Positions 14,027-38,301 of a DNA stretch of 64,000 bases are shown piece by piece; the first letter of the stretch is position 1, and each line of letters opens with the position of its first letter. The position numbers and the translations under genes are program-made. The stretch covers positions 1 through 64,000 of the forward strand of contig JAJEIP010000068.1 in assembly GCA_022827885.1 (NCBI GenBank), read 5' to 3'. Below the pieces are notes generated by a model. It ran no database searches and had not been told where the DNA came from. It saw nothing but the letters and a program-made list of their open reading frames with translations. The DNA comes from Candidatus Poribacteria bacterium (GTDB taxonomy: Bacteria > Poribacteria > WGA-4E > WGA-3G).

Positions 14027-15157
14027 ATGAAGACATTATTCCTCAAGGACATGCGGTATCGCCAAGCGAGAGTTATCCTCACAACCCTCGGTATCACCGT
14101 CCTCATTTCATTGATACTGCTGTTAGGCGGCATTATGAACGGTATGCGCATTCAAGCGCGACAATACGTCGAATCCACTGGGGCGGATGTCTGGATCTCT
14201 GCTGAGGGTTCCGGCGGCGCATTTATTGGGTTTTCGATGGTCGTTGAGGAATATATGGCATTTCTGAACTCAGGTCCCGGCTTGGTGCCAGACTCTGCAT
14301 CCCCATTGGTTTTCGCGCAAGCGCGTCCGAACGTCCGGGGCAAATCTACCAAGGCAATCGTTGTCGGCTATAAGTTGGGACAACTCGGGGGTCCTAAAAG
14401 TGCTATTGAAGGGAGAATGTTCACTCGGAGTAATTTTGAAGACTATAGACCTGAAGATCCAATCCCCTACGAAGTCGTCGTTGACGAGAAAATGGGACTG
14501 GAAATCGGAGAACAGATTACGCTCAGCAACGAAAAAGTCCGTGTTGTCGGCAAAGCAAAAAGTCTCATGTTTGTTTTAGATACGCCGCTGCTCTTTATGG
14601 ATGTCCGTATTGCCCAGAAACTTCTCCTCGGTAATACACCACATGTCAACATGATGATCGCGAAAACAAACAAGAGTGAACACCCCGCACAGATCGCCGC
14701 CGATTTAGATGCCTTAGAAACCATTGAAGTACGCACCTTAAAACAGACGCTTACGGATATCATCGCCTACTACGTTGATGAACCGATGAAGGCTGTGCAA
14801 TTCCTACGGGTGATGTTATGGTTAGCGGCAGGTATCCTCGTCGGGATGATTACTTACGTAACGATGCTCGAAAAGACCCAGGAAATCGGGGTCCTCAAGG
14901 CTATCGGCGGCTCAAACGGTTATGTGATGGGTCTGCTACTCAAACAGGTTGTCCTCATCTCGATTGTCGGCGTGCTACTTGGACTTAGCCTGTCGTATGT
15001 GTTCGCGGCAGCGGCACCGATTTTCGTCGCGATTCACTTCGTGGAATCGATCATCGTTGCGTGCATCAGTTTCATCGTGTGTTGCGGTAGCGGGTATCTG
15101 GCAGCACGGAAAGCGATTGCAGTCGATCCGATGATTGCATTCCGCGGTGAGATTTAA
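14027..15157 (+). CDS. FtsX-like ABC transporter permease (MacB/LolC/DevC type)
   Basis: 376 residues. One N-terminal transmembrane helix (LTTLGITVLISLILLLGG), a periplasmic domain of about 230 residues (45-270), then three C-terminal helices containing the FtsX-family phrase EKTQEIGVLKAIGGS. These type VII ABC permeases do not move substrate through a pore; they push lipoproteins or other molecules across the periplasm. The ATPase and an outer-membrane-type protein follow, so the set looks like a three-part export or envelope system. There is no periplasmic adaptor gene of the MacA type. Note that the ATPase starts 150 bases later with its own leader. Confidence 0.88.
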   Translation: MKTLFLKDMRYRQARVILTTLGITVLISLILLLGGIMNGMRIQARQYVESTGADVWISAEGSGGAFIGFSMVVEEYMAFLNSGPGLVPDSASPLVFAQARPNVRGKSTKAIVVGYKLGQLGGPKSAIEGRMFTRSNFEDYRPEDPIPYEVVVDEKMGLEIGEQITLSNEKVRVVGKAKSLMFVLDTPLLFMDVRIAQKLLLGNTPHVNMMIAKTNKSEHPAQIAADLDALETIEVRTLKQTLTDIIAYYVDEPMKAVQFLRVMLWLAAGILVGMITYVTMLEKTQEIGVLKAIGGSNGYVMGLLLKQVVLISIVGVLLGLSLSYVFAAAAPIFVAIHFVESIIVACISFIVCCGSGYLAARKAIAVDPMIAFRGEI

Positions 15158-15306: not shown

Positions 15307-15981
15307 ATGGCAGCAATCATAGAAGGAACGGGCTTAACGAAACGCTTTGGCACAGGCGACGCAACCGTTGTCGCAGTCGACGCGGTCGATATCCGAATTG
15401 AAGCGGGTGAACTGTTGATGCTGATGGGAGATAGCGGTTGCGGCAAGACAACACTCATCAGTCTCCTCGGTTGTATTCTAACGCCAGATGCCGGGGAACT
15501 TCACATCGATGGCGAACCGATTAACGCTGATGTGCAAGACTTAAGCGTCATTCGTCGTGAAAAGATCGGATTCGTCTTTCAACTGTTCCATCTGCTGCCC
15601 TATCTCACCGCACTGGAAAACGTAATGGTCGCGATGGACCTCGCTCGAACAAAGACGGATGACGCAGAAAGCCGCGCAATAGCGTTACTGACACAAGTCG
15701 GATTGAGCGATCGATTTCATCATCGTCCCGCCCAGCTCTCCGGTGGTGAAAAACAACGCGTCTCTTTTGCGCGTGCCCTCGCCAACCGTCCGAAAATTAT
15801 TTTCGCCGATGAACCCACCGCTAACCTCGACAGTCGCCAGAGCGATAATCTGATGAACCTTATTCAAGAACTGCGTCAAGAACACCAAACCACTATCGCC
15901 ATTGTGACGCACCATGAAGGACTCAAAGAGAACGCTGATCGTGTCATCCAGATGAAAGATGGAAGGATTCTCGCCACGTGA
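15307..15981 (+). CDS. LolD/MacB-type ABC transporter ATP-binding protein
   Basis: 224 residues, normal for this family. Walker [11 protein letters not shown]-loop [10 protein letters not shown], signature LSGGEKQR, Walker [13 protein letters not shown] and H-loop IVTHH are all intact. It powers the FtsX-like permease encoded upstream. The stop codon overlaps the GTG start of the next gene (GTGA), so ATPase and outer-membrane protein are translationally coupled. Confidence 0.92.
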
Positions 15982-17734: not shown

Positions 17735-18043
17735 TTAAAAAACCTGGACTTTGATCTCCTCATCTTCGACAATCACTGGATAGGTCCTGATGCGGAGGCG
17801 TGGGTCGGTTTGGCATTCACCCGTCTTTGTATCGTATGCATAACCGTGGACGGGACACACAGCGACACCGTTTCGGATTCTACCTCTACCGAGGGAGCCC
17901 ATGGCATGCGGGCAGGTGTTGTCCACGGCACAGAATTCGCCACCTTCATTGAAGATAGCGACCCGCTTGCCATTGACGGTGAACGCTTTGCCGCGTCCTT
18001 CTCGGATCGCTGACGTTTTTGTAACCGTTATATAATCTGACAT
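17735..18043 (-). CDS. Rieske-type [2Fe-2S] ferredoxin
   Basis: 102 residues, typical of small Rieske ferredoxins. Both cluster motifs are complete: CPHAMG (C44, H46) and CPVHGYAYD (C63, H66). Such proteins carry electrons to Rieske oxygenases, or are NirD-like subunits. No signal peptide or membrane anchor, so cytosolic. No oxygenase or reductase gene lies beside it, and its partner is unknown. The start is preceded by the GAACCGCAAGGAA leader (18044-18085). Confidence 0.92.
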   Translation of the reverse strand: MSDYITVTKTSAIREGRGKAFTVNGKRVAIFNEGGEFCAVDNTCPHAMGSLGRGRIRNGVAVCPVHGYAYDTKTGECQTDPRLRIRTYPVIVEDEEIKVQVF

Positions 18044-18156: not shown

Positions 18157-19881
18157 TTATTCCTTAACGCTTCCTAAAGTGATTCCTTGCACGAATTCAC
18201 GTTGCATTGCTAAAAATAGGATAACGATTGGCATGAGAGATAGCAACGTTCCCGCCATCAACATCCCGTAATCTTGACGATAGGTCCCCACGAGATTCGC
18301 TAAACCGATCGGTAGCGTATATTTCACTTCATCCCGTAAAATGATGAGGGGCCAGAGATACCCGTTCCATGAACCCAAAAACGAATAGATCGTCAACGCC
18401 CCAAGCGCCGGCTTGATGATAGGCAGCACAACGCGGTAATAGATACCGAACTCGGAACAGCCATCAATCCGTGCCGCATCCAGCAGTTCAGACGGAATCG
18501 TGACAATGAATTGACGCATCAAGAAAACACCGAACGCGCCGACTGAAAATGGGATGATAATCGCCTTGTAACTATTGAGCCAGCCAATATCATACATCAA
18601 TCCAAACAACGGAACGAGCAATACTTGAAACGGGACCATCATAGAAGCGAGGAGGATACCGAACAGGATCTTTTGACCACGGAACTGATACTTGGCAAAC
18701 GCGTATCCACCGAGTGAACAGAAAAACAGCGTGAGCAACGTTGACGCGGTCGCAATGAAGATGCTATTGACGAAATACCGATTATACGGCACTGTCTTCC
18801 ATAGATTCCGGTAGTTTGACGTGAATTTATCCCATACAATTGAGAGATACGCGGGTTGATGAATCGTTAATTGCAGGAACAATTGGCTCCCATTTCCTGT
18901 GACCACTGTCGCTTCGGGTGCGAGATTCGTTTCTGTCTTCTGCATCGTGATGTGTGACGACTCTAACTCACCCGGAATACCGTTCAGTCGCCAGACCGAA
19001 TCTGTCCACAATGCGCTCCCTAAAACGAAAGAACGCGTCGGTTGATATGTAACGCCATTGTGAGTGCTGCTATCCTCCGTTCCAGAGTTCGGGACAGACA
19101 CGGTTAAAAAGAGACGGTGATACGAGGCATCTCCACGCACAGGCAGCGTGAGACGTCGTATCCGTTCAACGGGAATAGGCGAAGAAATCGTTGCTGTGAT
19201 ACGGGCAGTGTCGCTGTCTTGGAAATTGTAGGATAGACTTGCATCCGTCTGGGCATCGTCTGATGTGCGTATACGCGTGCCTGTCTCTGCTACCCAGTTC
19301 ACAACCTCAATCGGTGTGCGATTGAAGTCAAGGTCCTCTATCTGGAGCGTTCCAACCGCAACTTCGCGATACACCGATCCCCAGATCGTATCAACCGTCT
19401 CCGGAATAATAGCCTCTCGCACCGCTGCAGTCATCGCATCCGTTGTGCCGTTCCAGACCTCATCGGGCAACCCTGCGATCAGTTGCGCCCATAACCCCTC
19501 TATGACTTCGGTTTGCAATTCTTCGGACGGCACATAATTGGCAAGCTTCGCATTTGCTGCGATGTGTGCCTGTGTCTCAGACCAAATTATTTGGATGAGT
19601 TGGGGTTGCAGGGTCCTCCACGATGTTTCATCCACAGCCACAGGTTTTTCAATGTTAGGATAGGCATCTTGGACAATATAAGGGGATGTTGGGACGCGCG
19701 GGGGTAGATGCGGGAACCACTGAATAGGGACAGCGAAAATTTCGTTGGCGGTTTTAAAGGAGGAGGTCAACAACCACAGCATCGGTATCATCGTACAAAA
19801 TGCTGCGGCTACCAAAAGGAGATAACCGACCCCTCTGAAAATTTTTATTTTAACCTGTTGGTTTCTTTTGCTGTGATTCAT
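18157..19881 (-). CDS. MalG-type ABC transporter permease with a large insert
   Basis: 574 residues, about twice the usual 270-300. The first helix and following phrase (TMIPMLWLLTSSFKTANEIF) and the C-terminal half (from about residue 370) match carbohydrate permeases. The cytoplasmic EAA loop is clear in LLDAARIDGCSEFGIYYRVV and the phrase after it. Between helix 1 and helix 2 lies an insert of about 290 residues, predicted periplasmic, with beta-rich and Asp/Thr-rich stretches; I do not recognise it. Sugar importers normally have a second permease, a binding protein and an ATPase nearby; none is here. The insert might replace or dock a binding protein. Upstream are a repeat protein and MoxR on the same strand. 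Confidence 0.82.
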   Translation of the reverse strand: MNHSKRNQQVKIKIFRGVGYLLLVAAAFCTMIPMLWLLTSSFKTANEIFAVPIQWFPHLPPRVPTSPYIVQDAYPNIEKPVAVDETSWRTLQPQLIQIIWSETQAHIAANAKLANYVPSEELQTEVIEGLWAQLIAGLPDEVWNGTTDAMTAAVREAIIPETVDTIWGSVYREVAVGTLQIEDLDFNRTPIEVVNWVAETGTRIRTSDDAQTDASLSYNFQDSDTARITATISSPIPVERIRRLTLPVRGDASYHRLFLTVSVPNSGTEDSSTHNGVTYQPTRSFVLGSALWTDSVWRLNGIPGELESSHITMQKTETNLAPEATVVTGNGSQLFLQLTIHQPAYLSIVWDKFTSNYRNLWKTVPYNRYFVNSIFIATASTLLTLFFCSLGGYAFAKYQFRGQKILFGILLASMMVPFQVLLVPLFGLMYDIGWLNSYKAIIIPFSVGAFGVFLMRQFIVTIPSELLDAARIDGCSEFGIYYRVVLPIIKPALGALTIYSFLGSWNGYLWPLIILRDEVKYTLPIGLANLVGTYRQDYGMLMAGTLLSLMPIVILFLAMQREFVQGITLGSVKE

Positions 19882-20278
19882 AAGTTTTTTCTAAAAATCT
19901 GCCTAAAATTTCGTTGCCAACAGCCGGTCCGGTATCCCATTCATCAGACTCGTCGGATCCGTTATTTCCGGGTGCGTCAACAAGCAGCTCCTTTAGTTTC
20001 GGACGTGGATGTGTCGTAGAGCGCCCAACCTTCTCAACCCGATGCGGTTTGAATTTTCCCGATTTAACCGCTTCATACTGCTCAGCACAACCCGATTCCT
20101 GAGTCAGCAGCTCCTTTAGTTTCGGACGTGGATGTGTCGTAGAGCGTCCGACCTTCTCAACTCGATGCGGTTTGAGTCGGGCATCTGTCTTAGCAGGGAT
20201 CCGATTTTTGTATTCAGTTTTGGGCGCGATAAGAACATTAAGATACGCAATCAGTACTAAACATTCTTGGGATGACAT
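19850..20278 (-). CDS. Unknown small protein with two identical 23-residue repeats
   Basis: 142 residues; the second of two adjacent ATGs is chosen because AAGGAGG is only two bases from the first. No known domain. The phrase KPHRVEKVGRSTTHPRPK plus KELL occurs twice, about residues 36-58 and 77-99, identical in protein but with three base differences, all synonymous. The repeats are basic, the tail acidic (GNNGSDESDEWD). It starts 10 bases after the MoxR stop and its end overlaps the start of the permease gene by 32 bases, so the three are probably one operon. Confidence 0.6.
   Translation of the reverse strand: MSSQECLVLIAYLNVLIAPKTEYKNRIPAKTDARLKPHRVEKVGRSTTHPRPKLKELLTQESGCAEQYEAVKSGKFKPHRVEKVGRSTTHPRPKLKELLVDAPGNNGSDESDEWDTGPAVGNEILGRFLEKTYESQQKKPTG
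19982..20173 (-). repeat. Two 69-base direct repeats inside the small repeat protein gene
   Basis: Copies at 19982-20050 and 20105-20173, offset 123 bases. Only three differences, all silent. Confidence 0.85.
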
Positions 20279-20288
20279 CATTTCCTCC

Positions 20289-21164
20289 TTAATTATACCC
20301 CAATTCGGATAATTCTACCGAGCGTGCGCGCTGGATATCGTCCTGGTACTTGAAGACACAGCCCAGCGTCTCAGCGACGACATCCGCATCCAGTTGTGCT
20401 TTACCCAATGCCACGAGTGCCAACGCCCAATCCAAGGTCTCCGCAACACCCGGTTTCTTATAGTAATCCCCTTGCCGCCAGAGTTGCATCATCCCACACA
20501 ACTGCTGTGCAAGGTGTTCATCAATCTGTGGAAGCTTCGTCTGCACGATCGCTAACTCCTTCTCAACAGTGGGATAATCGATCCACTGGTAGAGACACCG
20601 GCGTTTGAGTGCTTCATGGACCTCTCGCGTCCGGTTCGAAGTCAATACTACATACGGAATATGTTTCGCTTGAATCGTTCCGATTTCGGGGATAGTAATC
20701 TGGAAGTCGGACAAGATTTCCAGTAGAAACGCCTCAAATTCACTGTCGCTCCGGTCTACCTCGTCGATGAGTAAGACGGGTGGGACATCACCATCGCTCT
20801 GAATAGCCTCCAACAACGGACGTTTCAATAAAAACGCTTCGCTGAATAGGTCGGTGCCGATGTTTTCTTTTTCCCGTCCGCGTGCTTCATCAATGCGAAG
20901 TTGCAAAATCTGGCGCGTGTAGTTCCATTCATACAACGCACTGTTTGCATCCAGACCTTCATAACATTGCAATCGGATGAGTTTCGCGCCTGTTGAATCC
21001 GCAAGGACCTTCGCGACTTCAGTCTTGCCGACACCGGGTTCGCCTTCGAGAAAGATGGGTTTTTTGAGATGATGCGCGAGATAGAGCGTTGTCGCTAAAC
21101 CTCTATCTGCGATATACGCATATTTTTCACAGGCAACTTGAACGTTTTCAATAGACGTGAACAT
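20289..21164 (-). CDS. MoxR-family AAA+ ATPase
   Basis: 291 residues. Walker A GEPGVGKTE (residues 41-49), Walker B VLLIDEVDRSD followed by the MoxR-typical EFEAFLLEILSDF, and sensor 1 VLTSNRTREVHEALKRRCLY. MoxR ATPases act as chaperones that insert cofactors or mature partner enzymes, usually with a VWA-domain protein encoded next to them. No VWA gene is visible; the downstream neighbour is the unknown repeat protein. The start follows a leader ending TAAGGAATAATTAAAAAT, a possible divergent relative of the repeated leader. Confidence 0.9.
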   Translation of the reverse strand: MFTSIENVQVACEKYAYIADRGLATTLYLAHHLKKPIFLEGEPGVGKTEVAKVLADSTGAKLIRLQCYEGLDANSALYEWNYTRQILQLRIDEARGREKENIGTDLFSEAFLLKRPLLEAIQSDGDVPPVLLIDEVDRSDSEFEAFLLEILSDFQITIPEIGTIQAKHIPYVVLTSNRTREVHEALKRRCLYQWIDYPTVEKELAIVQTKLPQIDEHLAQQLCGMMQLWRQGDYYKKPGVAETLDWALALVALGKAQLDADVVAETLGCVFKYQDDIQRARSVELSELGYN

Positions 21165-31126: not shown

Positions 31127-31474
31127 TATATTTCTCCCAGCAAATTTATTATCTTATTTTATCACAGGTGGGTTCTAAAATCAATTCATTTTCAATAATA
31201 AAAGGCGTATCCACTTAAACAAAAAAGTGATACTCCATTATATTAATAACAATTCCGAATTTTGTCTTATTTTCGTAACAATTGGGTGTTATAATTTAAG
31301 CGAAGGCGTTTCATAAATCATTTTTACTGAAAAACAGTCTTGATGTGAGTCACATTTTGTGTGGAGTTTCCAGGTGTTTCGTTTTAGCAAACTCATCGAA
31401 AAAATAAAAATATGATGTGCTCTCTCACGTCAGGATAATAGATCACGTTGGAATTTCGTGAAGGAGGTAGATTG
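31127..31474. other. Divergent gap between M32 and pst operon
   Basis: 348 bases, AT-rich. Holds the M32 promoter (minus) and a TATAAT (31290-31295, plus) for pstS. That -10 has no good -35; the half-similar words TTGTCTT and TCGTAAC, 11 bases apart, lie where an activator such as PhoB would bind. This is only a weak hint of a Pho box. Confidence 0.4.
31156..31184 (-). promoter_or_regulatory. Candidate promoter for the M32 peptidase
   Basis: On the minus strand TTGATT, 17 bases, TAAAAT, about 30 bases before the start codon. Confidence 0.5.
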
Positions 31475-32440
31475 ATGCGAATGACCAGTCAGATCAGTTA
31501 CACGACGATATGCTTTCTTGTCGTTTTAGCATGCGGTTTCGTCATGAGCGGTTGTTCACCGAAAGACGATGCAGATGCTGCAAAAACGACGGAAACACAA
31601 CTCATCACCCAAAATACCAAAAACCCCCAAAATAAGGGAACACAATTCGTCATCAAAAATAAAGGGTCAGACACGATGGTGAATTTAGCACAAGCATGGG
31701 CTGAAAAGTATATGGATGTCAGCGCCACGACATCGGTGGAGGTGTCAGGTGGCGGCTCTGGGACCGGCGTCGCGGCAATCATCAACGGCACCGTAGACAT
31801 TGCGAACTGCAGTCGCCAGATTAAACCGAAAGAACTGGAACTTGCGATGCAAAATACGGGTAAAACCCCTCAGGAATTTATTGTCGGTTACGATGCCCTC
31901 GCGGTCTATGTCCATCAAGACACCCCACTCGATAAAATTACGATCCCTCAACTTGCAGAAATTTATGGTGAGAGCGGCACAATAGCCAAATGGAGCGATC
32001 TTGGTATCTCACATAGCGACTGTCCGAGCGACAAGATTATCCGTATCAGTCGCCAATCTAACTCTGGGACCTATTTCTATTTTCGCGAGGCACTTCTCGG
32101 CAAAAGCCGTGATTTCCGCATCGGTTCGCTGGATCTCCACGGTTCCAAAGATGTCGTAGAAGTTGTCGGAAGGACCCCGTGTGCTATCGGTTACAGCGGC
32201 ATGGGATATGCCACCTCACACGTAAAAATGTTAGAGATTGCCGCCGACGCGGATTCGCCTTACTATCCTCCGAATCTTGAAAATGTGCTTGCCAAAACCT
32301 ACCCTATCGCGCGTCCTTTATACATGTATTCCTTGGGTGAACCCACAGGAGCAGTGAAACAGTACCTCGATTGGATATTGTCAGCAGCCGGGCAAGAGAT
32401 CGTTGAGAAACTCGGGTTTGTGCCCTTAGAAAATAATTAA
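31475..32440 (+). CDS. pstS: Phosphate ABC transporter substrate-binding lipoprotein
   Basis: 321 residues from ATG 31475, preceded by GAAGGAGG. A lipobox SGC sets the lipidated Cys at residue 27. The mature part has the PstS/SphX pattern: NKGSDTMVNLAQAWAEKY, VSGGGSGTGVAAIINGTVDIANCSR, RQSNSGTYFYFRE. The Ser, Thr, Asp and Arg residues of these phrases bind phosphate in known PstS proteins. The protein would sit on the periplasmic face of a membrane and pass phosphate to PstC/PstA. It is the first gene of the pst operon (31.5-39.0 kb); pstC starts 2 bases after its stop. Confidence 0.92.
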   Translation: MRMTSQISYTTICFLVVLACGFVMSGCSPKDDADAAKTTETQLITQNTKNPQNKGTQFVIKNKGSDTMVNLAQAWAEKYMDVSATTSVEVSGGGSGTGVAAIINGTVDIANCSRQIKPKELELAMQNTGKTPQEFIVGYDALAVYVHQDTPLDKITIPQLAEIYGESGTIAKWSDLGISHSDCPSDKIIRISRQSNSGTYFYFREALLGKSRDFRIGSLDLHGSKDVVEVVGRTPCAIGYSGMGYATSHVKMLEIAADADSPYYPPNLENVLAKTYPIARPLYMYSLGEPTGAVKQYLDWILSAAGQEIVEKLGFVPLENN

Positions 32441-32442
32441 CA

Positions 32443-33351
32443 ATGAATATCCTACGAAAAAAAAGCACGGCACATCTGCCATTTTCCGAAACAGTGATTG
32501 AACTGTTCATCCGTCTGTGTGGTATCAGTTCCATTCTCTTTGTATTCGGTATCTTCTTTTTTGTATTTCGGGAGGGCGCCGGTTTCCTTTTCGGAGGTTT
32601 AGATGTAGGGCAATTTCTGACGAATGTCGAGTGGCAACCGACCTCATTGAACAATAAAAGATATGGTGCCCTTGCGCTGATCGTTGGCACTTTCAGCGTC
32701 ACCCTCTTAGCGATGTGTATCGCGGTTCCGTTTGGGCTTGGGGCGGCAATTTTTGTATCGGAGTTCTGTAGTCCAAAACTGAGAGAAACATTTAAGATCA
32801 TCATCGAACTGCTCGCGGCTATCCCGTCCGTTGTGTGGGGGTTCATCGGATTGACCGTGATGAATCAATTGATTATCACAGTGTTCAACGCCCCCATTGG
32901 GTTAACAATGCTCAACGGTAGCATCCTGCTGGCACTGATGAGTGTGCCGATTATCGTTTCCATCGCGGAAGACGCCCTCAAAGCCGTCCCGGATTCCTAT
33001 CGTGAAGCGGCGGAGGCGCTCGGTGCGACGCGCTGGCAAGTGGTCTATCGTGTGCTTTTACCCGCCGCCAAAAACGGGCTCCTCGCAGCCGTGCTCCTCG
33101 GTGCGGCACGCTCTATCGGTGAAACGATGGCTGTGCTTATGGCGACCGGACACTCCGTTAACATGCCATCAAGTCCTCTCTCTTGGATTCGCACGCTCAC
33201 GGCAACAATCGCCGCTGAGTTGGGTGAAGTCGCAAGAGGCGGTGAACACTATCAAGTCCTCTTTATCATCGGTATCCTGCTGTTCACCATTACCTTTGTG
33301 GTGAACCTCATCGCCGATTTAGCGATTAAAGGGATTCGTCAGGAGTCATAA
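32443..33351 (+). CDS. pstC: Phosphate ABC transporter permease PstC
   Basis: 302 residues with six hydrophobic segments. PstC phrases include AIPSVVWGFIGL, the cytoplasmic EAA loop SYREAAEALGATRWQVVYRV and ARSIGETMAVLMATGHS. With PstA it forms the phosphate channel. Nothing looks degenerate here. Confidence 0.93.
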   Translation: MNILRKKSTAHLPFSETVIELFIRLCGISSILFVFGIFFFVFREGAGFLFGGLDVGQFLTNVEWQPTSLNNKRYGALALIVGTFSVTLLAMCIAVPFGLGAAIFVSEFCSPKLRETFKIIIELLAAIPSVVWGFIGLTVMNQLIITVFNAPIGLTMLNGSILLALMSVPIIVSIAEDALKAVPDSYREAAEALGATRWQVVYRVLLPAAKNGLLAAVLLGAARSIGETMAVLMATGHSVNMPSSPLSWIRTLTATIAAELGEVARGGEHYQVLFIIGILLFTITFVVNLIADLAIKGIRQES

Positions 33352-33369
33352 CGGAACGGAACGTGAAGC

Positions 33370-33409
33370 CACCAACACACCTGAACGAACCGCAAGGAAT
33401 AATTAAGAG
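33370..33409 (+). repeat. Repeated leader with GAACCGCAAGGAA, before pstA
   Basis: Copy of the leader also found before the ABC ATPase (15.3 kb) and Rieske (18.0 kb) genes; here inside an operon, in the 58-base pstC-pstA gap. Confidence 0.7.
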
Positions 33410-34294
33410 ATGTTTACGGAAACAGAAATCAGCAAACACAAACGGTGGACAGAGAATGTGATGCGAATCTTCTTTCTTGTAATGACAAGTTTGATGATTC
33501 TTCCATTACTCCTCATCATCGGTTATCTTATTTACAAAGCGTTACCGGTCCTCTCACTGGAGTTCCTATTCACGAATCCGAAGGACAACATGCGTGCCGG
33601 GGGACTCTGGGCTCCCTTCTTAGGTACAATCTATTTGGTGGTCGTCTCCTTATTAGTATCGGCACCGATTGGCGTATTCGCTGCAGTATACCTCAACGAG
33701 TATGCCCGTGAGAGTTGGTTCACGCGTATCACGAATTTAGCGGTTGTGAATCTTGCGGGTGTACCGAGCATTGTCCACGCGTTGTTCGGGGTTGGGGCAT
33801 TTGTACTTTTCGCGGGTTTAGGAGAATCCATCTTAGCGGCATCCCTCACGTTAGCCATCATGACGCTCCCAGTGATCATCGCCAGCACGACGGAAGCCCT
33901 CAAAGCCGTCCCGATGTCGTTTCGAGAGGCGTGCTGGAACCTTGGGGCGACGCGCTGGCAAACGATTCGCCGTATCGTTATCCCTAACTCCATCAGCGGC
34001 ATTTTGACGGGTGTTATCCTACAGGTATCGCGAGCGGCAGGTGAAACGGCACCCATTATGTTCACGGGTGCGGTTTTTTATAAAGCTATTGCGGAAGGAG
34101 ATCTTCTCGCCTATAATATAACAGAACAGTGTATGGCACTCTCGCTGCACCTTTTTACGATTTCAACACAGGTTCCGGACGTTACGGAGGGCATTCCCTA
34201 CGGGACCGCGGTTGTCCTTGTCGGCAGTGTCTTACTCGTCAATGCGACATCAATTGTGCTAAGGGTGTATCTCCGAACTCGGAAAAAGTGGTAA
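33410..34294 (+). CDS. pstA: Phosphate ABC transporter permease PstA
   Basis: 294 residues, six helices. PstA phrases: LNEYARESW, AGVPSIVHALFGVGAF, the EAA loop SFREACWNLGATRWQTIRRI and SRAAGETAPIMFTGAVF. It should pair with PstC. The end is followed 29 bases later by a K+ channel gene instead of pstB. Confidence 0.93.
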   Translation: MFTETEISKHKRWTENVMRIFFLVMTSLMILPLLLIIGYLIYKALPVLSLEFLFTNPKDNMRAGGLWAPFLGTIYLVVVSLLVSAPIGVFAAVYLNEYARESWFTRITNLAVVNLAGVPSIVHALFGVGAFVLFAGLGESILAASLTLAIMTLPVIIASTTEALKAVPMSFREACWNLGATRWQTIRRIVIPNSISGILTGVILQVSRAAGETAPIMFTGAVFYKAIAEGDLLAYNITEQCMALSLHLFTISTQVPDVTEGIPYGTAVVLVGSVLLVNATSIVLRVYLRTRKKW

Positions 34295-34323
34295 GTCAGA
34301 CAGGCTCGTAAGGAAGAACGTTC

Positions 34324-35070
34324 ATGGGAAATAAAGACAGATTACGAGCGATCATTGAAGGAAGCCTCGTCAGCGGAATCATCCAGTTTCTGATCCTTGC
34401 GTCCGCTGTGGTCTTTGTGCTTGAATCTGATAGTGAGGACCCACAGGCGCCTCACTTCATTTTGCTGGACTCGGTATTTTTTGGTCTATTTTCGATCGAA
34501 TATATCTTACGTGTTTATATTGAACCGAGAAAACGGGATTTCATTTTCAGTTTCTACGGCATCATAGACCTCCTCGCGATTCTACCGTCTCTGTTTCTGG
34601 TCCCAGGGTTCCGCGTTCTTCGGATCCTGCGGTTTCTGCGAATTTTCAGAATTTTCAAAGCGACCCGCTTCATTTTAGCGGTAGATCGGCTCACCGAGGC
34701 ATTGAATGAAATCCGACGGGAACTCTTGGCACTGGTTATCCTGTCATTAATGTTAGTCTATCTCGCAGCGTGTGGCATCCATTATTTTGAAAGAGAAGTG
34801 CAACCCGAAGAATTCGGGACCATTCTTGATTCCATGTGGTGGGCTATCGTGACACTCACCACAGTCGGTTACGGAGATGTCTACCCCGAAACACCAGGTG
34901 GAAAATTTTTCACCGCGCTCGTCACGCTTATTGGCGTCGGTCTGGTTGCGATTCCATCCGGACTCTTAGCTTCAGTTTTAACGGAAGCACGGGTAGAACG
35001 CAAAGTAGAAGAAGAACGTGAAGAAAACGTGGACCCTGAATCCACGGAAGGCATCGACAAAGAGACATGA
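34324..35070 (+). CDS. Voltage-gated-type potassium channel
   Basis: 248 residues with six transmembrane segments. The pore filter TVGYGD lies near residue 180. The S4-like helix has Arg at nearly every third position (RVLRILRFLRIFRIFK), as in voltage sensors. S1-S3 include acidic partners (FSIEYILR, FYGIIDLLAILPS). It resembles bacterial Kv-type channels of the ion_trans family (KvAP-like, though shorter). A charged C-terminal tail of 30 residues has no TrkA-type domain. Ribosome-binding site AAGGAAG. Its stop overlaps the ATG of the next pstB gene by 4 bases, so it is truly part of the pst operon. A link between phosphate uptake and K+ or membrane potential is inferred. Confidence 0.92.
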   Translation: MGNKDRLRAIIEGSLVSGIIQFLILASAVVFVLESDSEDPQAPHFILLDSVFFGLFSIEYILRVYIEPRKRDFIFSFYGIIDLLAILPSLFLVPGFRVLRILRFLRIFRIFKATRFILAVDRLTEALNEIRRELLALVILSLMLVYLAACGIHYFEREVQPEEFGTILDSMWWAIVTLTTVGYGDVYPETPGGKFFTALVTLIGVGLVAIPSGLLASVLTEARVERKVEEEREENVDPESTEGIDKET

Positions 35071-35852
35071 ACTCAAACAACCAGAATGGATCGCAAAACA
35101 GCGCTGTAATTGAGGTTACCGATCTGAAGGTACGCTATGGAGACAAATCCGCCCTGAACGGCGTTTCATTCGATGTATACCAGAACGAGATCCTCGGTAT
35201 CATCGGTCCTGTGCAATCCGGTAAAACAACGCTCTTGAAAGTTATCAACAGAACACTGGAATTTACACCGAACACAACCGTAGAAGGATCCGTGAAACTC
35301 AATGGCGAAGATATTAGCACAATTAGCGACGTATACGGTTTACGCAGACGGATCGGTATGGTGCAGCCTTTACCGGTGGGTCTGCCGCTTTCCATCTATG
35401 ATAACGTTGCTTTTGCACCACGCACAGCCGGTATCCGCTCAAAATCGGAATTAGACGAAATCGTTGAACGGTGTCTACAACAAGCAGCACTCTGGGAAGA
35501 GGTAAAGGACCGGTTGAAGGCACTCGGCACTAAATTATCAGGTGGACAACAACAACGCCTGACGATTGCGCGTGCCCTTTCACATCAACCAGATATCCTC
35601 TGTCTCGACGAATTCTCAATCGCTGTTGATCCTGTTACAACGATGCGTATTGAAGAAGTGCTCAAAACTTTACGAACAAAAATGACGATTCTGCTCGTCA
35701 CGAATTTGGTGCAACAGGCAAAACGGTTAGCGAACCGCACCGCCTTTTTTCTCAACGGGGACCTCATTGAAATCGATACAACAGATGTAATTTTCTCTGA
35801 AAATCCATCAGAGCAAGCGACGTACGACTACGTGAATGGAGCTTTTGGCTAA
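35067..35852 (+). CDS. pstB: PstB-like ATPase 1: intact signature, H-loop and Q-loop changed
   Basis: 261 residues, PstB-like throughout. Walker A GPVQSGKTT (47-55), signature LSGGQQQR (157-164) and Walker B ILCLDE (177-182) are present. The switch histidine of the H-loop, in the family phrase VTHN, is replaced: ILLVTNLVQQ, Asn213. The Q-loop, normally MVFQ, reads MVQPLP, with Pro at the usual Gln place. The residue after Walker B DE is Phe instead of Pro. Such changes in ABC proteins usually mark a site that binds but poorly hydrolyses ATP. It could supply its good signature to a partner's site. Translationally coupled to the K+ channel. Confidence 0.88.
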   Translation: MNSNNQNGSQNSAVIEVTDLKVRYGDKSALNGVSFDVYQNEILGIIGPVQSGKTTLLKVINRTLEFTPNTTVEGSVKLNGEDISTISDVYGLRRRIGMVQPLPVGLPLSIYDNVAFAPRTAGIRSKSELDEIVERCLQQAALWEEVKDRLKALGTKLSGGQQQRLTIARALSHQPDILCLDEFSIAVDPVTTMRIEEVLKTLRTKMTILLVTNLVQQAKRLANRTAFFLNGDLIEIDTTDVIFSENPSEQATYDYVNGAFG

Positions 35853-35879
35853 ACCTACCGCGGGAGAATAGACGGAATC

Positions 35880-36644
35880 ATGAATTACAGCATTGAAACT
35901 GAAAACCTCAGCCTCTGGTATGGCGATTTCCAAGCTCTTATTGATGTGAGCGTCAAGATACGAGACGGCCAAATAACTTCGCTTATCGGTCCTTCTGGAT
36001 GCGGGAAATCAACACTATTACGCTGCTTCAACCGCGTCAATGAACGCTACGGCAACGTTACAACAGAAGGAAAAATCGAGGTTCTGGGGAAAAACATCTA
36101 CGATGCGGATGTCTCTTTGCCGGAACTCCGAAAATCCGTGGGTATGGTGTTCCAAAGACCGAATCCATTGCCGATTTCAGTCTACGAAAATATACTGTTC
36201 GGTTTGCGTACCCACTCTCCAATACGGAGTATGACCCGAACGGAATCAGACCAGATTGTTGAAGAGGCACTGACATCTGTCTTCCTTTGGGAGGATCTGA
36301 AAGACAAATTGAAGGTCCGCGCAACATCACTCCAACTCGAACAGCAGCAAAAACTCTGTATCGCGCGTTTGCTGCCGCTGAAACCCAAAATCATTCTGAT
36401 GGATGAACCGTGCTCTGCGTTAGACGCGAAAGGCACGCTCGCTGTTGAAGAACTCATGGCAGTCCTTGCCGGAACATATACATTCCTTATTGTAACGCAC
36501 AACATGGCACAGGCACGGCGCGTCAGTAAGGAGTGTATCTATATGTTCCTCGGCGAACTTATTGAACACAGAGAAACACAAGCCCTCTTTGAAACACCAC
36601 AACACCCGAAAACCGCGGATTACGTGCAAATGCGGTACGGATAA
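35880..36644 (+). CDS. pstB: PstB-like ATPase 2: intact nucleotide site, degenerate signature
   Basis: 254 residues. Walker A GPSGCGKST (37-45), Q-loop MVFQRPNP, Walker B IILMDEP (171-177) and the H-loop IVTHN (His207) are all canonical PstB. The ABC signature LSGGQ is replaced by LQLEQ (151-155) in a context that is otherwise PstB-like (QQQKLCIAR). The defect is thus the mirror image of ATPase 1. Paired with 1 or 3 it would make one complete and one dead ATP site, as in asymmetric exporters. Starts 27 bases after ATPase 1. Confidence 0.9.
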   Translation: MNYSIETENLSLWYGDFQALIDVSVKIRDGQITSLIGPSGCGKSTLLRCFNRVNERYGNVTTEGKIEVLGKNIYDADVSLPELRKSVGMVFQRPNPLPISVYENILFGLRTHSPIRSMTRTESDQIVEEALTSVFLWEDLKDKLKVRATSLQLEQQQKLCIARLLPLKPKIILMDEPCSALDAKGTLAVEELMAVLAGTYTFLIVTHNMAQARRVSKECIYMFLGELIEHRETQALFETPQHPKTADYVQMRYG

Positions 36645-36695
36645 AAATAACTGTCAGCCATCAGCAATCGGTTTCCGTCAGTAGGATATCCACTC

Positions 36696-37523
36696 ATGAA
36701 TTCCTCAATGATCCCTTCAGAACTCAGAAAAAAAATCGCTTTGCAGGGGGGTGCCGTCATTATAGGGGGCACCGTGTTTGTTTTTTTCTGGAATGACCTT
36801 CGAAAAACAGCAGCGGCTCACATTCAAACGTCATCAACATCTCGTATCTCCGGTATATTGCCCAGTCTCATCAGCGATCTCAATCTGATTCTACCCATCA
36901 GCCTTTTAGCGGTTTTATTCGGGATAGCCTGTGCTTTTTACTTAGAAGAATGGTGTCCAGCAACAAGTTGGATTCGAGGTTTTATCGGAAGCCAGGTCAA
37001 CTTTTTGACTGAAATTCCTTCACTCTTGTACGGACTTTTAGCAATCATGGTTCTTTTCAGCGACCCCGGGGTTTTCAAAGAGATTGGAGCGTTTCCGCTT
37101 GCCCAGAACGCGAATGGATCCGGTTTAGAAGTCGCTCTCTTTCAGCGTAACACACTGGTGTTTTACGCAGAGACTTTAATCTTCATTTTGATGGCAATGC
37201 CAATAGCAATCAAAACAACCCAAGAGGCACTTCGATCTGTTGCGACCCCCATCCGTGAATCTGCCTACGTCTTAGGTGCCACTCAATGGCAAGTCTTAAC
37301 AAAACAGGTCGTGCCGCTTGCCTTTCCCAAAATGCTTGCAGGTGGATGTCGATCGATGTCTCGGGTACTCGCGGCAGCTGCCTTACTTATCGGTATTCAT
37401 ATACCGAACCATGCAACAGGTCCCAGAGGCATACCCGACAGATTCGTGTTATTCTTAGGCGGGGCACTGCTATTGAGCACTGTCTCGAGCTTTTTAACGA
37501 TTGAATCCGGAACCCAAAAGTAA
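36696..37523 (+). CDS. Third Pst-type permease (PstA/PstC-like)
   Basis: 275 residues. It has an N-terminal helix, then the permease core with an EAA loop PIRESAYVLGATQWQVLTKQ and the phrase EIPSLLYGLLAIMV, clearly of the PstA/PstC family. It is less like either than the first two permeases; the region AQNANGSGLEVALFQRNT between helices is unusual. A Pst channel needs two permeases, so a third may form an alternative channel or a homodimer. Downstream ATPase 3 starts next to or overlapping its end. Confidence 0.85.
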   Translation: MNSSMIPSELRKKIALQGGAVIIGGTVFVFFWNDLRKTAAAHIQTSSTSRISGILPSLISDLNLILPISLLAVLFGIACAFYLEEWCPATSWIRGFIGSQVNFLTEIPSLLYGLLAIMVLFSDPGVFKEIGAFPLAQNANGSGLEVALFQRNTLVFYAETLIFILMAMPIAIKTTQEALRSVATPIRESAYVLGATQWQVLTKQVVPLAFPKMLAGGCRSMSRVLAAAALLIGIHIPNHATGPRGIPDRFVLFLGGALLLSTVSSFLTIESGTQK

Positions 37524-37530
37524 AAAAACG

Positions 37531-38301
37531 ATGCAGACGGACAAAGAAAAACCCATTCTGAGCACGCATAATTTAAATGTATGGTATGGCGATCATCAGA
37601 TTCTGAACTCGCTCTCGTTTGAGGTCCAACCGAGACAGGTAACAGCACTCATGGGTCCTGCCAATTGTGGTAAAAGCACACTTGTCCGGTGCTTCAATCG
37701 TTTAAATGACTTTACGTCGAATTTCAGGTTCAGCGGTAAAATACTTTTTAAGGGCAGTAACATGTACGCGGAAACGACAGATGTCACCGCCATTCGGAAA
37801 AAGATTGGGATGGTGTTCCGAAAACCTGAATTATTTCGTTGCTCTATCTACGAAAATGTGGCATACGGGGCTCGGATAGCAGGCATAAATCAATCTTCAC
37901 ACCTTGATAGCATCGTTCAGAAAAGCCTGCAAAGATCCGGCCTTTGGAATGAAGTGGAATCCATTTTGGACGAAGATCCGAAACAACTCTCCATCGGACA
38001 GCAACAACTTCTCTGTACCGCGCGGGCTTTAGCGGTTGACCCCGAAATCCTGATATTTGATGAGCCGTGCGGGGAACTGGACCCGATCGCAACCGTTAAA
38101 ATCGAGAACCTCATACGGGATCTCGCAAACGATTGCGCCCTTATCTTCGTCACGAACAAAAGAAGGCAAGCGGCGCGTGTTTCCAATGTCGCGGGATTCC
38201 TCTACTACGGAGAATTGATCGAATTCGGAACAACCGAAAAGATTTTCACAAATCCACAAGATACAAGGACAGAGCAATATGTGACAGGTTCTTTAAGTTA
38301 G
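37531..38301 (+). CDS. pstB: PstB-like ATPase 3: H-loop and Q-loop lost, signature LSIGQ
   Basis: 256 residues from ATG 37531; a TTG at 37501 in frame would overlap the permease gene and neither has a strong ribosome-binding site. Walker A GPANCGKST (42-50) and Walker B ILIFDEPC are present. The Q-loop is MVFRKPE with Arg for Gln (R97). The H-loop is IFVTNKRR with Asn209 for His. The signature is LSIGQQQ (153-159), with the first Gly of GG replaced but Ser and Gln kept. The pattern parallels ATPase 1, which makes it a second possible partner for ATPase 2. It is followed by phoU. Confidence 0.88.
   Translation: MQTDKEKPILSTHNLNVWYGDHQILNSLSFEVQPRQVTALMGPANCGKSTLVRCFNRLNDFTSNFRFSGKILFKGSNMYAETTDVTAIRKKIGMVFRKPELFRCSIYENVAYGARIAGINQSSHLDSIVQKSLQRSGLWNEVESILDEDPKQLSIGQQQLLCTARALAVDPEILIFDEPCGELDPIATVKIENLIRDLANDCALIFVTNKRRQAARVSNVAGFLYYGELIEFGTTEKIFTNPQDTRTEQYVTGSLS

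Follow-up and report, generated by a model that had tools for sequence, protein, structure and literature searches.

Poribacteria are a sponge-associated bacterial phylum. In ABC importers of the CUT1 class, substrate choice is ascribed to the binding protein. The MalF subunit of the E. coli maltose transporter carries a folded domain, P2, in a large periplasmic loop. P2 is reported to contact MalE (PMC8134467; work cited in PMC3328499), and MsmK/MalK-like ATPases of type I importers are described as multitask ATPases (PMC7658222). The present analysis concerned a permease of 574 aa in the window, i.e. the whole stretch of 64,000 nucleotides that was analysed, from a Candidatus Poribacteria bacterium (contig JAJEIP010000068.1 of assembly GCA_022827885.1). 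The permease was of the MalG type and carried a large insert in a loop at which the related MalGs used for alignment have none. Among the titles and abstract openings listed for open-licence papers, none reported a MalG insert of such kind.

At a threshold of at least 150 aa, a single ORF was found at the permease locus, and its position and those of the other features were listed in Table 1. The sole Pfam match of the protein was BPD_transp_1 (PF00528) at residues 392-564 (E 1.6e-21), and the EAA-like loop was retained in the alignment with E. coli MalG, which bore out the original prediction of an intact MalG-like core. The top NCBIfam models were UgpE, GlcU and MalG, every one below cut-off. 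Structural matches of the core to MalG/UgpE/SugB-type permeases reached Z of about 11-12, and the seven solved relatives listed, including AlgM2, SugB and MalG, all aligned from residue 346 or later. Six hydrophobic segments were read from hydropathy, one N-terminal and five C-terminal of the insert, and the insert was assigned to the periplasm because the positively charged flank preceded TM1. The ORF was not a product of chance, as homologues that were full length or lacked only the first residue were present in 34 of 35 same-genus genomes with 78-96% identity, and a chance fusion or frameshift as its source was ruled out by the conserved frame together with purifying selection. The homologue of genome G030 was matched as two pieces. 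Separately, a 143-aa ORF (19850-20281, minus strand) shared 32 bases with the 5' end of the permease gene and contained the motif KPHRVEKVGRSTTHPRPKLKELL twice; stretches resembling it occurred at 8 of the 45 loci compared below, and it had no Pfam family.

Table 1. Positions of the permease gene, its parts and its conserved neighbours in the window
Feature	Position	Strand	Basis
MalG-type (CUT1-like) permease with insert, 574 aa	18157..19881	-	ORF call, Pfam, homologue and MalG alignment
TM1, residues 21-39	19765..19821	-	Hydropathy and AlphaFold model
Insert in TM1-TM2 loop, about residues 57-349	18835..19713	-	Alignment with insert-less MalGs; models
Helical half of insert (predicted), residues 85-170	19372..19629	-	AlphaFold, 10-residue blocks about 73-96 pLDDT
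Beta-sandwich half of insert (predicted), residues 174-341, possibly CBM-like jelly roll	18859..19362	-	AlphaFold and structure comparison
Conserved permease core, residues 350-574	18160..18834	-	Pfam, solved relatives, alignment
EAA-like coupling loop, about residues 464-487, intact	18421..18492	-	E. coli MalG alignment; invariant columns
Rieske [2Fe-2S] protein, conserved downstream neighbour, 44/45 loci	17735..18043	-	Pfam and locus comparison
MadB/MoxR-like AAA ATPase, conserved upstream neighbour, 41/45 loci	20289..21164	-	Pfam, locus comparison; NCBIfam below cut-off

Compared with E. coli MalG and an insert-less poribacterial MalG, the permease contained about 290 extra residues between helix 1 and helix 2, in agreement with the size and place first proposed. 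The insert was also rightly called an unknown domain, being separately predicted and having no Pfam or PDB sequence match: with 34 insert members, 11 Pfam families were listed at E<=1, none of them a CBM and none convincing, and one match in a PDB sequence search, to an excisionase (E 0.018, 47 positions), was not convincing. Structure prediction, which had been suggested as a check, was run with AlphaFold and split the insert into two halves, one helical and the other a beta sandwich. The model of the insert alone (34 sequences) had a mean pLDDT of 83 and a pTM of 0.75, with low-confidence loops at residues 267-273 and 321-330 of the beta half; in the full-length model the core was poor (10-residue blocks of 35-77) and the mean over all residues was 71.9.

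The model of the insert alone was compared with known structures by VIA-align. For its beta half, GH50 agarase N-terminal domains scored Z 8.7 (rmsd 3.1, 131 residues) and Z 8.6 and CBM22 of Xyn10B Z 8.5 (rmsd 2.9, 119 residues), followed by CBM11 (Z 7.6), CBM35 (Z 6.4) and CBM61 (Z 6.2), and the agarase score rose to Z 9.3 with the full-length model. Non-CBM folds scored near these values (FlaA1 7.2, a viral turret 6.9, a complex I assembly factor 6.8, Eph receptor domains about 6 and Cry11 6.0), and a Z near 8 can reflect a common arrangement. Foldseek searches of the PDB with the insert gave no match at E<=0.001, the best rows being other folds, among them SPOP MATH domains and a phage tail protein. 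Because of this null result and the close non-CBM scores, the jelly-roll class is likely rather than proven for the modelled beta half. The predicted fold fits the built-in binding or docking domain that had been envisaged.

The insert diverged far faster than the core. Mean Kimura distances among 38 genomes of family f1 were 0.608 for the insert and 0.052 for the core, a difference of about 12-fold, and 0.114, 0.144, 0.138, 0.109 and 0.180 for the AAA ATPase, the Rieske protein, the binding protein, MalF and hisA, respectively. For 16 pairs, several of which had dS above 1, the insert halves gave dN/dS values of 0.08-0.34 and the core values of 0.00-0.02. The insert is constrained, under purifying selection, yet fast-changing. 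Within its fold, W88, W100, W131, W196, R242, D251, Y254, H255 and G301 were invariant in 38 aligned sequences of the two insert-bearing lineages, W143, Y171 and R172 were also counted as conserved, and conservation was confined to scattered positions, e.g. tryptophans and an RGDxSYH-like motif. A variable loop was observed at about residues 320-331 of the window protein, and it was expanded by a tandem GLVPAQSA repeat in G030 (L062:7950-9749).

To describe the neighbourhood, 45 loci of the window MalG type (L104-L148; 5.6-17 kb of DNA each) were compared. The Rieske gene was absent only from L147, which stops at a contig end, and the AAA ATPase gene was cut by a contig end in L143 and was not found in L146, L147 and L148. 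Further upstream, a molybdenum-cofactor-type nucleotidyltransferase gene (model below cut-off) and a YdjY/acylphosphatase gene were usually present. Queries with the binding protein, MalF and the fusion protein described below had no match at the 45 loci, and the MalK query gave only 28-31% matches, to other ABC ATPases. The original prediction that the permease has no partners therefore held for the local cluster, where none of the MalF, binding-protein or MalK type was present, but not for the genome, in which co-occurring candidates were found on contigs C117 and C141. Likewise, an ATPase had been said to be lacking nearby, but a 224-aa ABC ATPase (15307-15981, plus strand) was located about 2.2 kb from the permease; it matched generic ATPase models only, had no MalK OB or TOBE domains in Pfam and adjoined a MacB/FtsX-type gene (14027-15157). 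A separate ABC set was also observed in the window (31448-38301, plus strand), with a PBP_like_2 binding protein, permeases at 32443, 33410 and 36696, an ATPase at 37501 and an ion-channel-like gene at 34324.

The genome of the window (G000; 5.13 Mb, 148 contigs) contained candidate genes for the other subunits. On C117, a binding protein of 452 aa with one N-terminal hydrophobic segment and an ordinary MalF of 299 aa were followed by hisA, and no MalG was present beside the binding protein and MalF; this gene order was repeated in seven other same-genus genomes (L086-L090, L094, L095). A cation-efflux-like protein was recognised by eye in L086 (5551-6705, minus strand), and its frame started with VCLLFWFRHNG-like repeats, probably a translated DNA repeat. 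The NCBIfam match of the C117 binding protein was a carbohydrate binding protein and the best model of its MalF was UgpA, both below cut-off. Close relatives were found in a single contiguous operon of genomes G057 (L054) and G058 (L055), with identities of 60% and 59% for the binding protein, 67% and 68% for MalF, and 72% in both for the window MalG core against the operon MalG. The operon MalGs, with ORFs of 277 aa and 304 aa, were without the insert, and the L054 binding protein matched SBP_bac_1 and SBP_bac_8 in Pfam. The best MalK-type gene of the genome was a lone gene on C141, encoding 371 aa with ABC_tran, OB_MalK and TOBE_2 domains. In each of the three f3 genomes, its homologue was part of an operon that also encoded the binding protein, MalF and MalG; OB_MalK and TOBE_2 were present in the operon ATPase of L059, the only f3 ATPase scanned, and genes of the DUF4432, aldo/keto reductase and xylose-isomerase-like types were located near that operon. 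Judged by co-occurrence, the C141 ATPase is likely the partner of the window MalG. A MalF-like protein with a matching insert had been suggested as something to look for elsewhere in the genome, and this was not supported, as the C117 MalF was of ordinary length and the insert profile matched only the window gene of the genome at E<=10.

Co-occurrence was then counted in 84 poribacterial genomes, with cut-offs of E<=1e-40 for MalG, E<=1e-60 for the binding protein and MalF, and E<=1e-120 for the ATPase. Matches were obtained in 68 genomes for MalG, 64 for the binding protein, 64 for MalF and 67 for the ATPase. MalG with or without the insert and the ATPase were both present in 65 genomes, MalG only in three (G015, G059, G060), the ATPase only in two (G065, G071) and neither in 14, these being counts from related and thus non-independent genomes. 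The 68 MalG genomes included the three f3 genomes and G060, whose MalGs were without the insert; for insert-bearing MalG the corresponding numbers were 62 with both, two with MalG only (G015, G059), five with the ATPase only (G065, G071 and the three f3 genomes) and 15 with neither. In family f1 (58 genomes), MalG was found in 56 (absent from G065 and G071, 90 and 93% complete), and each of the other three genes, for the binding protein, MalF and the ATPase, in 57 (absent from G015, 78% complete); these counts included partial or broken MalG genes in G066, G082 (one stop flagged) and G030 (two pieces), a binding-protein fragment with two stops in G011 and a MalF spread over two contigs in G027. 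G065 and G071 (L180, L181, L187, L188) had the binding protein, MalF and ATPase and no matching MalG; they kept the AAA-nucleotidyltransferase-acylphosphatase stretch, and no MalG was present in the 3.9 kb read. The three loci were far apart in all five single-contig f1 genomes (G005, G010, G022, G028, G081), by which an assembly artefact as the cause of the scattering was rejected, and in G063 MalG and MalF were on one contig about 52 kb apart.

In one scan of 84,980 species genomes with two peptide patterns, which distant inserts without those patterns would escape, the insert was found in Poribacteria only: 52 of 66 loci matched the insert, all 52 poribacterial, and the other 14 matched the TM1 region only. 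A second insert-bearing MalG was present in six f5 genomes, G052 (f7) and G049 (f4); its core was 38-41% identical to that of the window MalG and it carried a homologous insert (23-29%) at the same place. It lay directly downstream of a binding-protein-MalF fusion in all six f5 genomes, so that the possibility of a common domain in MalG relatives, considered with the original prediction, was realised to the extent of this recurrence but not as a widespread occurrence. The fusion consisted of a signal peptide, the binding protein, a TM segment and MalF, as checked in two fusions by Pfam and TM reading; the fusion of G059 was cut by a contig end, and in G049 and G052 the fusion and MalG were on separate contigs, each adjoined by other genes. 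Such a fusion of SBP and MalF via one TM segment in a CUT1-type importer was observed at L048:5695-8148 (+), L052:6141-8606 (+; signal peptide, SBP, TM at 486-504, MalF) and in homologues.

A tree was built from 42 selected cores, of which 22 had the insert and 20 did not, and two insert-bearing clades were separated by insert-less ones. Well-supported branches forced two changes, and 0% of 200 bootstrap trees permitted one, so the core tree did not support an insert that arose once. The insert either moved between MalGs or was lost several times, and we favour transfer. The insert tree had long branches and gave no direction of transfer. The genome of the window encoded a second MalG-type permease of up to 439 aa (C64:155447-156073; L057:7442-8761, minus strand), and homologous open frames of about 380-440 aa occurred in many genomes. 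By eye, its TM1-TM2 stretch contained extra hydrophobic segments, unlike the insert, and on this visual comparison homology between the two was set aside.

The explanation that we prefer starts from the observed domain, its position, its conservation and constraint, the candidate partner genes and their co-occurrence, and we give it a probability of about 45% as a whole: a split four-part sugar importer in which the insert serves as a capture module. The window MalG would be one of four parts of a CUT1-type importer whose genes are scattered over three loci: besides the MalG locus, C117 would supply a membrane-anchored binding protein and MalF, and C141 the MalK-type ATPase. The pore would consist of MalG and MalF, two MalK would be the power source, and the substrate, judged from the NCBIfam models, all below cut-off, and from the genes near the f3 operon of L059, would probably be a sugar. 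This assignment of the four parts is very probably correct, and they would assemble as MalF-MalG-MalK2 with the tethered binding protein. G065 and G071, which have the other three components and no matching MalG, count against the explanation. The insert, projecting from the TM1-TM2 loop, would sit in the periplasm beside the mouth of the pore. As a capture module built into MalG, it would hold a glycan or envelope polymer there and raise the local concentration from which the tethered binding protein and the pore could load. The glycan-capture role is put forward tentatively, at somewhat less than even odds. Transport as such seems not to depend on the insert, because close relatives of the binding protein and MalF are encoded in the sister operon, whose MalG lacks it. 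We would go further only with reservation: it is conceivable, if on balance improbable, that a mobile poribacterial periplasmic module, consisting of the helical half and a CBM-like jelly roll, entered the TM1-TM2 loop of two MalG lineages and became a second, pore-attached glycan receptor on a binding-protein-dependent sugar importer.

A docking platform for the substrate-binding protein, doing in MalG what P2 does in MalF of the maltose transporter of E. coli, would account for the periplasmic position of the insert and has P2 as its precedent. For a mirror-tree comparison, 44 of the 58 f1 genomes were collected and the 38 with all six genes were used (6 dropped). With the AAA ATPase, hisA and Rieske distances partialled out, insert and binding-protein distances correlated at r 0.51, a value reached by 0 of 2000 permutations, and with the core and MalF partialled out as well the correlation was r 0.27 (11 of 2000); however, the control pair of AAA ATPase and binding protein gave r 0.62 with hisA and Rieske partialled out, as high as the insert pair. 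No profile similarity of the insert to E. coli MalF was detected by hhalign (probability 0.2%), a weak test with a single E. coli sequence, and MalF was absent among the 50 best PDB rows for the insert model, to which the comparison was limited. The insert diverged far more than the binding protein, one insert family occurred with two binding proteins that share only 20-22% identity, and the binding protein of the insert-less sister was 59-60% identical to that of C117. In our reading, the fast divergence against a conserved binding protein and the occurrence with two such different binding proteins favour a ligand role over close docking, and for these reasons docking is ranked second and considered doubtful.

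The fast divergence of the insert, its variable and in one genome repeat-expanded loop and its scattered conserved positions would also suit a structural or regulatory decoration, acting in stability or in contact with peptidoglycan or envelope proteins and having no direct substrate role. This is unlikely in view of the purifying selection on the insert, its presence in 56 of the 58 f1 genomes and its occurrence in a second MalG lineage. A true orphan permease, working without MalF or a binding protein and with the insert as replacement, would explain the lack of partner genes around the 45 loci, but partner genes of matching ancestry co-occur in nearly all genomes of the family; a true orphan or a homodimer was disfavoured on this ground and is scarcely credible.

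If the capture-module explanation were true, the pore would be fed or tuned in a new way, by a second folded and fast-changing receptor that the pore subunit carries in two importers of one phylum. The ‘orphan permease’ may be an orphan only when read from its neighbours, the importer being likely split over three loci, and the insert-less sister operon offers a natural control for the contribution of the module.

With CUT1 importers of the MalFGK2 type the system has in common the PF00528 core and EAA loop, a likely partner MalF of common ancestry, a binding protein of the SBP_bac_1/8 type and, assigned by co-occurrence, a MalK-type ATPase with OB/TOBE domains. The permease resembles E. coli MalG, mycobacterial SugB and the alginate permease AlgM2 in its core, EAA-like loop and six hydrophobic segments, and differs from MalG/UgpE/SugB-type permeases in the extra TM1-TM2 residues and in lying apart from the likely MalF, binding-protein and ATPase genes. 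Like P2 of MalF, the insert is a large folded periplasmic loop, as predicted, in a permease subunit of the same class, but it is located in the other subunit and in another loop, and the weak test made detected no sequence similarity. The modelled beta sandwich is comparable to jelly-roll CBMs (CBM22, CBM11, CBM35 and the GH50 agarase N-terminal domain) over about 105-131 residues with Z up to 8.7, and is distinguished from them by the absence of a sequence match, the non-significant Foldseek result, the added helical half and its housing within a permease. The poribacterial fusion importer (L048-L053) shares the homologous insert at the same place in MalG, whereas its core is more distant and its binding protein is fused to MalF via a TM segment. 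Finally, the C141 ATPase gene resembles those of the multitask MsmK/MalK-like ATPases in being of the MalK type, with OB and TOBE domains, and in standing alone, away from its likely permeases; it differs in that its distribution closely tracks the transporter group of the window.
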